In this document: positions 40,467 to 43,880 of the stretch, piece by piece
Layout: every line of letters starts with the position of its first letter
How positions within the stretch are numbered: position 1 is the stretch's first letter
From: Marisediminicola senii
GTDB taxonomy: Bacteria > Actinomycetota > Actinomycetes > Actinomycetales > Microbacteriaceae
Direction of reading: 5' to 3'
NCBI RefSeq assembly: GCF_011057645.1
Contig: NZ_JAALGE010000002.1
Location: forward strand, 124,001 to 188,000
DNA: 64,000 nucleotides
Notes under the pieces: model-generated
What the model was told of the DNA's origin: nothing
The model's database searches: none
What the model saw: only the letters and a program-made list of their open reading frames with translations
Position numbers and translations under genes: made by a program

Positions 40467-41330
40467 TCAGCGCACCGACTTGCGCTCGTACAGCGCGATC
40501 GACCACGCGAAGCCGACGACGGTCAGCAGCACGCACCAGCCGATCGCGAGCGCGGGGTTGCTGCCGAACGGGGTTCCGAGCAGCAGCCCGCGCACGGTCT
40601 CGATGAACGGGGTGAACGGCTGGTAGTCGGCGAACCCCTGCAGCGCATCGGGCATCGAGGCGGTCGGCACGAACCCGCTGCCGAGCAGCGGGAGCAACGA
40701 CAGTATGAGCGGCAGGTTGCTCGCCGTCTCGACGGACTTCGCCTGCATGCCCATGCCGACCCCGAGCCAGGTCACGGTGAACGCGATGGCCGCGAGCAGC
40801 CCGGCGACGGCCAGCCATTCGACGGGCGACGCGGTCGGACGAAAGCCGATGGCGATGCCGACGACGAGAACGAGCGCCACCGCGATGAGTGCCTGGATGG
40901 TGTTGCCCAGCACGTGCCCGGCGAGCACCGCGGCGCGGGAGATCGCCATGGTGCGAAAGCGCGCCGTAATGCCCTCGGTCATGTCCATCGACACGGTGGT
41001 CGCGGTGCCGCCCGCCGTGCCGGCGATGGTGACGAGCAGGATGCCGGGCATCACGTAGGCGAGGTACGCGGCACGTCCGCCGGTCGCCTCGACACCCGGC
41101 GCAACTGCACCGGGCAGGCCGGCGCCGAGGGTGCCGCCGAACACGAAGACCAGCATCAGGAGGAAAACCACGGGCACCACGATGGTGAACACCGACAGGC
41201 CCGGGTAGCGCACCATGTGCAGCAGATTGCGATGCAGCATGGTGACCGCGTCGGCGACGACGTGCGTCGGGGGCCTGGTGGATGCCGCCCGCCGACCTGA
41301 TGGCGCGGGGGCGGTATCGAGCGTGGTCAT
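40467..41330 (-). CDS. ABC-2 type exporter permease (DrrB-like)
   Basis: The 287-residue membrane protein has six helices (first near 45-66) and a conserved FRTMAISRAAVLAGHVLGN segment near 130-148. It belongs to the DrrB/ABC-2 group of drug or antibiotic exporters. The ATG overlaps the ATPase stop by four bases (ATGA). It is the distal gene of a cassette led by an RHH regulator, so substrates may be toxic compounds or cell-envelope molecules. Confidence 0.9.
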   Translation of the reverse strand: MTTLDTAPAPSGRRAASTRPPTHVVADAVTMLHRNLLHMVRYPGLSVFTIVVPVVFLLMLVFVFGGTLGAGLPGAVAPGVEATGGRAAYLAYVMPGILLVTIAGTAGGTATTVSMDMTEGITARFRTMAISRAAVLAGHVLGNTIQALIAVALVLVVGIAIGFRPTASPVEWLAVAGLLAAIAFTVTWLGVGMGMQAKSVETASNLPLILSLLPLLGSGFVPTASMPDALQGFADYQPFTPFIETVRGLLLGTPFGSNPALAIGWCVLLTVVGFAWSIALYERKSVR

Positions 41331-42322
41331 GATGCGGATCCTTTCGTGGGTGTGGTGGTGCCGCGGTTCTCGCGGGGGGTTCCGCCGGTCAGGGCGAAGA
41401 ACACGTCGTCGAGGTCGGGGGTGTGGATGCTGAGGTCGTCGATCTCGAGGCCGGCGCGGTCGAGGCGGTCGAGCAGCGCGCGGAGTACGCTGACCCCACC
41501 GTCGGTGGGCACGGTGAGCGAGAGCGCGGCGGTGTCGGCAGGCACACCGTCGGCCGGCCTGGTGGCCCCGCTCGATGCGAGGGCGTGGGCGGCAGCATCC
41601 AATGCGCCCTCGTCGCGAAAGCGCAGGCGGATGTGTCCGCCGGGAACGAGCCGCTTCAGTTCGTCTGGCGTGCCATCGGCGACGATGTTGCCTCCGTCGA
41701 GCACGGCGATGCGGCCCGCCAGCTCGTCTGCCTCGTCGAGGTACTGGGTGGTGAGCAGCACGGTCGTGCCATCGGCGACGAGGTCGCGCACGATCTGCCA
41801 CATGGTGTGCCTGCTGCGGGGATCGAGGCCGGCGGTCGGCTCGTCGAGGAACAGCACCCGAGGAGCCTGCACGAGCGTCATCGCCAGGTCGAGGCGGCGG
41901 CGCATTCCGCCGGAGTAGGTGGCGAGCGGTTTTCGCGCGGCGTCGACCAGGTCGAACTGCTCGAGCAGCTGCGCGGCGCGCGCCCTCGACCGTTTCGCGC
42001 CCAGGTGTCGCAGCCGCGCCATGAGGAGCAGGTTCTCCTCCCCCGTCAGCAGCGTGTCGACGGCGGAGAATTGGCCGGTGAGGCCTATGGCCGCGCGCAC
42101 GCCGTCGGGGTCACGCGCGACGTCGCATCCATCGACCGTGGCGGTGCCGCCGTCGGCCCGCACGAGGGTGGAGAGGATGTGCACGGTGGTGGTCTTGCCC
42201 GCGCCGTTGGGGCCGAGCAGGGCGGTGACGGTGCCCGCGGCGACGGTGAGGTCGACGCCGTCGAGCACGGTGGTGGTGCCGTAGGACTTGCGGAGCCCGC
42301 GGATGTCGATTGCGGCGGTCAT
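41327..42322 (-). CDS. ABC exporter ATP-binding protein (DrrA-like)
   Basis: The 331-residue ATPase has Walker A GPNGAGKTTT near 36-45, signature YSGGMRRRL near 135, Walker B VLFLDEPTAGLD near 157 and a C-terminal DrrA-type domain (about 235-310). It energises the permease encoded next, with which it overlaps. It lies 31 bases after a DUF4097 gene, likely co-transcribed with it. No resistance function is shown by sequence alone. Confidence 0.92.
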   Translation of the reverse strand: MTAAIDIRGLRKSYGTTTVLDGVDLTVAAGTVTALLGPNGAGKTTTVHILSTLVRADGGTATVDGCDVARDPDGVRAAIGLTGQFSAVDTLLTGEENLLLMARLRHLGAKRSRARAAQLLEQFDLVDAARKPLATYSGGMRRRLDLAMTLVQAPRVLFLDEPTAGLDPRSRHTMWQIVRDLVADGTTVLLTTQYLDEADELAGRIAVLDGGNIVADGTPDELKRLVPGGHIRLRFRDEGALDAAAHALASSGATRPADGVPADTAALSLTVPTDGGVSVLRALLDRLDRAGLEIDDLSIHTPDLDDVFFALTGGTPRENRGTTTPTKGSAS

Positions 42323-42353: not shown

Positions 42354-43217
42354 CTACCTGGCGCGCTGGATGCTGATGTCGCTGTGTGCGGTGCGTGCCC
42401 GTACCGCGACGGTGGCGTCCGGGGCCGCCGTAGCGTCGGCGGGGGCGGGTGCGCCCTCCGAGTCAAGTTCGTTGCGCACCCGGCCGCCCTTGGTGGAGAG
42501 GTCGAGCCAGGCGAGCACGCCGGGGCGCACGCCGACCGAGACCTGTCCGTAGCCGCTCTCGACGTCGATGGACCCGGCTGACACCCGCGAGAGCCGGATG
42601 CTGCCATAGGCCGTCTTGGCGGTGACGGATGCGTCGGCGCGCACGACCTCGAGGTCGCCGTACGACAGCTTGGCGTCGAGGGCGCCGGTGGCCTCGCCGA
42701 GCTGGATACTGCCGTGGGACGCCCGCAGCAGCGCGTCGCCGGCGATCGTGTCGATGCGGATCTGCCCGTGGTCGGCCGTGACCTCCGCGCTGCCGTCGAT
42801 CGCTCCCACGGTGGCGTTGCCGTGACCGGCGCGCAGCCACAGGTCGGCGGTGGCGTCGATATCGACGGGACCGGTCATGGCCTTGATACGGGTGGCGCCC
42901 AGGCGCCCGGTCGTGCGCACCCCGCCGTACGAGAGCTCGGCGGTGACGCGCGATGAGGTCGGCAGCTCGACGCGCACGTCGACCGACTCGGTCGGTCCGA
43001 TGATACTGATGCGGGCACGCGGACCCCGGATGGTGAGCCGCCGGCCATCGAAGTCGACGGAGGTCTCCTCCACGCCGCGGCGGTCGGCCGCCTTGCTGGC
43101 GCTGGTGGGAGCGACGGTCACGACCGTATCGGCGCGATCGGTCGCGATGAGCTCGACGGCGCCGACCTGGAGGGTGATGGCGACGTCGATGGGATCTGGT
43201 GTCTGGTAGCTGGGCAT
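42354..43217 (-). CDS. DUF4097 beta-solenoid protein
   Basis: The 287-residue protein starts with a short cytoplasmic N-terminus and then repeats beta strands (VDIDATADLWLRAGHGNATV, IDTIAGDALLRASHGSIQL, and so on), each about 20 residues with a G-hydrophobic pattern, as in DUF4097. This solenoid fold is common beside ABC exporters and stress regulators, and its function is unknown. It lacks a signal peptide. Genes on both sides run the same way. Confidence 0.85.
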   Translation of the reverse strand: MPSYQTPDPIDVAITLQVGAVELIATDRADTVVTVAPTSASKAADRRGVEETSVDFDGRRLTIRGPRARISIIGPTESVDVRVELPTSSRVTAELSYGGVRTTGRLGATRIKAMTGPVDIDATADLWLRAGHGNATVGAIDGSAEVTADHGQIRIDTIAGDALLRASHGSIQLGEATGALDAKLSYGDLEVVRADASVTAKTAYGSIRLSRVSAGSIDVESGYGQVSVGVRPGVLAWLDLSTKGGRVRNELDSEGAPAPADATAAPDATVAVRARTAHSDISIQRAR

Positions 43218-43328: not shown

Positions 43329-43817
43329 CTAGCGCGCCCAGCCCACGAAGCTGTCGCCGGTGCGGAGCGTTCGCTGCACCGACCGTCGCTGCTTCGGTTC
43401 GAGGCCGGCCGCGATGGCGCGGACCAGCCAGCTGTTGACCGATATGCCGTCGGCGGCGGCCGCGTCGTCGACCCGCGCCTTGAGGGCGTCGGGCAGGCGC
43501 AGCGTGGTGCGCGAGGTGCTCGCGTCGTCGTAGTCGATCGACGACCCGCCGCGCTCGTCGCCCTCGGGTTCTGCGGCCGGTGGGGTCACGACGAACTCGA
43601 CGTCGCGGCCGCGCAGGCGCAGGTCGACCGATCCGGGTGCGAGGTCACGGGTGATCTCGCCGGCCGCGGCCGACAGGGCGTCGAGCAGCACGAGCCGGGT
43701 GGCAGCGTCGAGGCCGGTGGCGAGTCGTTCGGCGGCGGCACGGGTGTCGTCCGTGCCGTTCGCCGCGGCATCCATCAGGTGGCGCTGCAGGTCGGTGACG
43801 TACTGCTCGAGTTCCAT
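43329..43817 (-). CDS. ribbon-helix-helix transcriptional regulator (HicB/CopG-like)
   Basis: The 162-residue protein has a helical N-terminal half (about 1-80) with unknown fold and a C-terminal RHH DNA-binding motif near 105-140 (RTTLRLPDALKARVDDAAA then SVNSWLVRAI). The domain order resembles HicB, but no HicA toxin is next to it. It leads the DUF4097-ABC exporter cassette. The promoter has a perfect inverted repeat over the -35/-10 spacer, so autorepression is likely. The ATG at 43817 is the first base of the predicted transcript. Confidence 0.8.
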   Translation of the reverse strand: MELEQYVTDLQRHLMDAAANGTDDTRAAAERLATGLDAATRLVLLDALSAAAGEITRDLAPGSVDLRLRGRDVEFVVTPPAAEPEGDERGGSSIDYDDASTSRTTLRLPDALKARVDDAAAADGISVNSWLVRAIAAGLEPKQRRSVQRTLRTGDSFVGWAR

Positions 43818-43823
43818 GCGTCG

Positions 43824-43880
43824 AGTATGACACCACAATGGTGTCATTACAAGGATGAGTGGTGTCAGAATGGTGCCACT
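43824..43880 (-). promoter_or_regulatory. leaderless promoter with perfect operator, RHH gene
   Basis: On the minus strand TTGTAA and CATACT are 17 bases apart, and CATACT is six bases from the ATG. The spacer contains the inverted repeat ATGACACCA-caa-TGGTGTCAT (43827-43847). Two further half-sites, TGGTGTCAG at 43860 and TGGTGCCAC at 43871, lie upstream. Confidence 0.75.

Follow-up and report, generated by a model that had tools for sequence, protein, structure and literature searches.

The promoter of a small RHH gene in the window (the whole 64-kb stretch of DNA analysed) contained an array of self-complementary octamers TGRYRYCA, which is very probably the operator of the downstream RHH protein, autoregulating an RHH–toastrack (DUF4097)–ABC operon by repression. 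This promoter was initially singled out for a perfect 9-base inverted repeat, and the arms ATGACACCA (43827-43835 on the plus strand) and TGGTGTCAT (43839-43847) indeed matched exactly around a 3-base centre. The resulting 21-bp palindrome ATGACACCA-TTG-TGGTGTCAT (43847-43827 on the minus strand) was placed at the 17-base promoter spacer as claimed, but it was slightly larger than the spacer that it was said to fill and overlapped both hexamer ends, so that it included the final A of TTGTAA (-35) and the CAT of CATACT (-10). Both additional half-sites, expected at 43860 and 43871, were found as TGGTGTCA (43860-43867) and TGGTGCCA (43871-43878), and the length of 162 residues given for the RHH protein agreed. 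The features of the locus were as follows:

40467-41330, minus strand: ABC-2/DrrB-like permease gene, its start overlapping the ATPase stop by 4 nt
41327-42322, minus strand: DrrA-type ABC ATPase gene (TIGR01188 and the ORF list)
42354-43217, minus strand: DUF4097 (toastrack) gene, second gene of the operon (Pfam E 4e-12)
43329-43817, minus strand: RHH autoregulator gene (predicted role), 162 aa, with the RHH strand and helices at about residues 102-137
43815-43817, minus strand: start codon ATG and putative transcription start (leaderless), from the fixed -10-to-ATG distance
43817-43824: octamer position R3, degenerate TCGACGCA, its last A being the start-codon A
43823-43818, minus strand: CGACGC between the -10 hexamer and the ATG
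43824-43829, minus strand: -10 hexamer CATACT, from the position profile (CAYNNT in relatives)
43828-43835: octamer R2, TGGTGTCA on the minus strand, at -18
43846-43830, minus strand: 17-nt spacer TGACACCATTGTGGTGT between TTGTAA and CATACT
43839-43846: octamer R1, TGACACCA on the minus strand, at -29 from the ATG
43847-43852, minus strand: -35 hexamer TTGTAA (most relatives have a TTGAC-like hexamer)
43860-43867: octamer R0, TGACACCA on the minus strand and TGGTGTCA on the plus strand, at -50 (R1 being two turns below)
43871-43878: octamer R00, TGGCACCA on the minus strand and TGGTGCCA on the plus strand, at -61

The window's four octamers had start-to-start steps of 11, 21, and 11 bp, approximately whole helical turns. 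In the window's own genome, R3 was degenerate, both upstream octamers R0 and R00 were present, and the -35 hexamer TTGTAA was weaker than that of the relatives.

Octamer array across orthologous promoters

Inverted repeats of this kind were common by chance in the window: three perfect 9-bp ones had a 3-nt centre, and 29 had a centre between 0 and 10 nt, so that the palindrome alone proved nothing; its meaning comes from conservation. Conservation in close relatives, whose lack was named in the original prediction as a refutation, was followed in 117 non-identical orthologues (31-100% identity), all of the same order; the outcome spoke strongly for the predicted reading, and the site was kept out to distant orthologues. 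The real unit across these promoters was the self-complementary octamer TGRYRYCA, which occupied up to five positions: (i) R1 at -29/-30 in 107/117 orthologues; (ii) R2 at -18/-19 in 109/117; (iii) R3 at -7, exact in 68/117 and with at most one mismatch in 100/117 (32 having one mismatch); (iv) R0 at -49 to -52 in 69/117; and (v) R00 at -60 to -63 in 18/117. These orthologues were interrelated and the counts were not independent, and the fairer numbers came from the 30 representatives below 60% identity: 29/30 for R1, 25/30 for R2, and 25/30 for R3 (at most one mismatch). Successive octamers were separated by steps of 11, 11, and about 21 bp; no off-phase octamer was present from -75 to +1 in the 117 promoters, with a chance expectation of 0.02 per position and with the in-phase offsets defined after data inspection.

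The octamers were interlocked with the promoter elements. TTG was present at -35/-36 in 101/117 orthologues, the -10 element CAYNNT was built from the R2 end, the 3-nt gap, and the initial T of R3, and the last A of R3 doubled as the start-codon A, the start codon being ATG in 115/117 orthologues and GTG in 2/117. The stretch from -80 to -52 was essentially without conservation in the position profile. The palindrome was real and conserved, but the basic unit was the octamer, the palindrome representing two of up to five octamers: R1 was reversed in 8/107 promoters or fully symmetric as TGACGTCA, and R2 and R3 were direct repeats, both of which weakened the palindrome as the basic unit. Octamer orientation also differed between some species.

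Across the 3.24-Mb genome, the pattern TGRYRYCA-NNN-TGRYRYCA had only two occurrences, both of them in the RHH promoter. The exact palindrome TGACACCANNNTGGTGTCA had 44 sites in 43 of 398 family genomes; the RHH gene was present in all 43, none of the 341 family genomes without the RHH gene had the palindrome, and the reversed-pattern control matched in two genomes. Forty-three of the 44 sites were at the RHH promoter, the exception (in genome G177) being located before an ABC exporter orthologous to the downstream one but unlinked to the RHH gene. The three-octamer array, with at most one mismatch, had 58 sites in 57 of 67 RHH genomes, all but one at the RHH start, and its control gave zero matches in these 67 genomes. 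Octamer letters also pointed to the M. tuberculosis Rv0560c promoter, a candidate that was discarded as the letters occurred in primers only.

A family-profile search recovered the array in other actinobacterial orders and classes, with lineage-specific letters: TGGCGCCA or TGGTGCCA in Streptomyces-like genomes and TGACGTCA or TGACGCCA in other genomes, the array out to Streptomyces taking the form of TGGYRCCA variants. Plasmid records of Tsukamurella tyrosinosolvens and Streptomyces cadmiisoli carried the array, and Streptomyces sp. NBC_00335 retained a weaker version. Some distant homologues (e.g., L149, L154, L157, L160, and L161) had no array at the assigned start; at L148 and L155, also distant, octamers were visible and the assigned start was wrong. 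A same-genus genome harbored a remnant (L132; G002:C67, minus strand, about 3477) composed of one octamer TGACACCA followed by a deletion that reached into the RHH gene as far as about codon 67.

The operon, the detached exporter and the RHH protein

The window operon had the order RHH–DUF4097 toastrack–DrrA-type ATPase (P0003)–ABC-2 permease (P0004). The ATPase scored 326.8 bits with DrrA profile TIGR01188 (cut-off 312.45), and the permease matched DrrB profiles below cut-off only. A DUF4097 relative was found downstream in 52/56 loci by simple tblastn, and a toastrack-like protein was visible in the loci whose ORFs were inspected. ABC genes followed RHH–toastrack in about half of the loci and were absent elsewhere with the toastrack gene retained, which made RHH–toastrack the core pair.

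Two sister genomes carried the ABC operon detached from the RHH gene: (i) in G177, about 165 bp separated the exceptional array from the downstream gene of an ABC ATPase with 79% identity to P0003, the next gene encoded a permease 72% identical to P0004, and RHH–DUF4097 was on a separate contig without ABC genes; and (ii) in G229, the permease was again 72% identical, and four octamers were placed directly upstream, the last being followed by a Shine-Dalgarno leader AAAGGAAGGAG and then by the ATPase ATG. At L213 and L229 (one genus, two genomes), the operon was split and octamers stood upstream of both halves. Near the more distant permease paralogues of the other genomes searched (29-39% identity), the array was missing. 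At these loci, the operator thus followed the exporter.

Members of the RHH family are usually annotated as 'toxin-antitoxin system HicB family antitoxin'. The window protein scored just under the Pfam cut-offs (HicB, 20.8 vs 21; RHH_1, 17.4 vs 20.5), and at the family level HicB/RHH profiles matched 14 of 15 members (best 2.4e-7). PDB profiles matched the same region, namely TacA-type antitoxin (0.0012), VapB26, Mnt, and Arc, the Mnt and Arc matches being weak. An AlphaFold model (4-sequence alignment, pLDDT 46), too poor for fold assignment, gave fitting helices at 110-123 and 127-139 and left the strand unresolved. A HicAB toxin-antitoxin system was rejected: no adjacent HicA was found, the neighbours were DUF4097 and, here, ABC genes, and no HicB-like N-terminal domain was recognized. 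PADLOC gave no match for P0001 (RHH) or P0002. A phage origin was also discarded, RHH relatives having been sought in viral contigs with none found.

The Pfam match was confined to residues 103-135, and residues 1-100 had none. The N-terminal domain (residues about 1-80; about 43578-43817) was conserved and family-specific and gave no Pfam hit at an E-value of 0.01, and it is a candidate for contacts with the toastrack protein or within an oligomer. A C-terminal GWxR (43329-43345) was family-wide, G159 and W160 being invariant in 15 diverse members, and this end is a possible interaction tail. The predicted beta-strand was RxxLR, with both arginines almost invariant. The half-octamers were TGAC/TGGT for RTTLR proteins and TGGC for R[IV]NLR proteins (Fisher p 6e-15 and 2e-21 on raw counts); on the tree, this covariation comprised only two to three supported independent changes, in the expected direction and not significant. 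With so few independent changes, a joint change of strand residues and octamer letters is suggestive only.

Proposed regulation and alternative readings

From the site, its register, specificity, and conservation, and the operon itself, all of which were read directly from sequence, we infer how the array is bound and what the binding does. By analogy with omega (see below), one RHH dimer most likely sits on each TGRYRYCA octamer, with its beta-ribbon in the major groove. With octamers one helical turn apart, dimers would bind cooperatively on one DNA face, from the -35 hexamer down to the start codon, with outlying octamers located above -35. Bound RHH protein would exclude RNA polymerase from the -35, the -10, and the start; transcription would begin at the A of the ATG, bringing operator, promoter, and start codon within one stretch of about 36 bp; and RHH, DUF4097, ATPase, and permease would be repressed together on a single message. 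The original prediction of a compact self-repression module is strongly favoured by the conservation of the site, but the module was larger than foreseen, spanning the toastrack and ABC exporter operon. Our guess is that the probable trigger of release is an envelope signal or a toxic-compound signal, which the toastrack protein may relay. A broader reading is considerably more tentative: RHH and toastrack might constitute a widespread actinobacterial sense-and-repress pair, a toxin-antitoxin-like operon without the toxin, in which the toastrack protein would sense envelope or drug stress and remove RHH from the array, inducing itself and any ABC exporter.

The RHH protein might instead be mainly an activator, or a dual regulator, at the array. 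The octamers at -50 and -61 are in positions often used by activators, and the RHH protein AmrZ both activates and represses (PMC3325190); the best conserved octamers, however, were R1, R2, and R3, which span -35 to +1, the upstream ones being optional, and this reading is considered unlikely. Slightly less likely still is that the array is the operator of another, unlinked regulator with the RHH gene as one of its targets, as might be suggested by the array before the detached ABC operon in two genomes and by a tie between RHH protein and site that is drawn from sequence, RHH binding being predicted. Such a general regulator would be expected to have further sites, whereas the site was restricted to genomes with the RHH gene, essentially at the RHH promoter only, and the octamer letters varied with the RHH strand residues.

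A leaderless promoter, as put forward in the original prediction, was likewise supported: the -10-to-ATG distance was fixed, no ribosome-binding site was visible, and the detached ATPase gave a leadered counterpart. CAYNNT ended 6 nt before the ATG in a fixed register, and inspection revealed no Shine-Dalgarno sequence upstream of the RHH ATG, which agreed with the leaderless -10 criterion (7-12 bp before the start, no Shine-Dalgarno sequence). In G229, where the start codon was outside the array, a leader appeared; this is good indirect evidence for a transcription start near or at the last octamer and hence for a leaderless RHH message. Among M. tuberculosis toxin-antitoxin pairs, 32/37 are leaderless (PMC3898074), making leaderless small regulator operons a pattern already familiar in the phylum.

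The in-frame ATG at 43847, inside the palindrome, opens a 172-aa ORF (43329-43847, minus strand; MTPLWCHTRR) that gene callers may choose. The conserved stretch would then be coding, with translation starting 30 nt upstream, a reading that is very improbable and was discarded, as a one-base difference in the spacer between orthologues (R1 at -29 or at -30) broke the frame, the octamers flipped orientation, and the array at L229 was followed by a Shine-Dalgarno leader belonging to a different gene. That the inverted repeat arose by chance, in a promoter of relatively high AT content, is conceivable from the 29 comparable repeats in the window but has a negligible probability and was already refuted by conservation in a fixed register in 107-109 of 117 orthologues; the site was also unique in the genome.

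Comparison with known systems

MetJ is an RHH repressor that binds cooperatively in arrays of tandem self-complementary octamers over promoters (met box AGACGTCT), and its met boxes abut at 8-bp spacing. The present array likewise consisted of tandem self-complementary octamers, here TGACGTCA-like, but a 3-bp gap gave an 11-bp step, and the link to S-adenosylmethionine was absent; MetJ was not among the sequence relatives detected by profile search. Arc, Mnt, and CopG are RHH proteins whose dimers occupy half-sites about one turn apart; they differ from the present protein as phage or plasmid repressors with other half-sites, and to our knowledge they do not tile leaderless promoters.

For omega (ParB of pSM19035), one RHH dimer binds per 7-bp repeat of WATCACW heptads, and binding is of high affinity when two dimers occupy direct or inverted repeats (PMC9499535). 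The two systems shared short repeats in direct or inverted order, arranged as arrays over promoters of the protein's own genes (PMC9499535), but differed in that the present unit was an 8-bp self-complementary octamer in 11-bp steps rather than a contiguous 7-bp repeat, the array ended in the start codon, and a partition function was not seen. Toxin-antitoxin operons of M. tuberculosis (PMC3898074) were similar as small two-gene autoregulated regulator operons with leaderless promoters, but the downstream partner here was toastrack plus ABC exporter instead of a toxin. According to the accessible part of a comparative genomic report (Ravi et al., PMC11237479), RHH–toastrack–ABC operons have already been noted in Actinobacteria; they were of the same type as the window's, and that part of the report did not describe the operator, the promoter architecture, or the binding code. 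No published description of the octamer operator was found in the openly accessible literature.

The array provides an operator code that can be read from sequence (TGRYRYCA in 11-bp steps, the final base also belonging to the start codon) for a regulator family that is usually mislabelled as HicB antitoxin and occurs in many actinobacteria, including Streptomyces, and on plasmids. This code predicts leaderless starts and corrects start-codon calls, and it links the toastrack–exporter operon to a specific predicted repressor; moreover, operator letters appear to vary along with those of the repressor, and the family may thus offer a naturally varied set for studying RHH recognition. The parts resembled the omega, MetJ, and Arc operators and the operon type was already published, and the new elements were the octamer code, its strict start-codon register, the wide range over which it occurs, and the way in which it accompanies the exporter.
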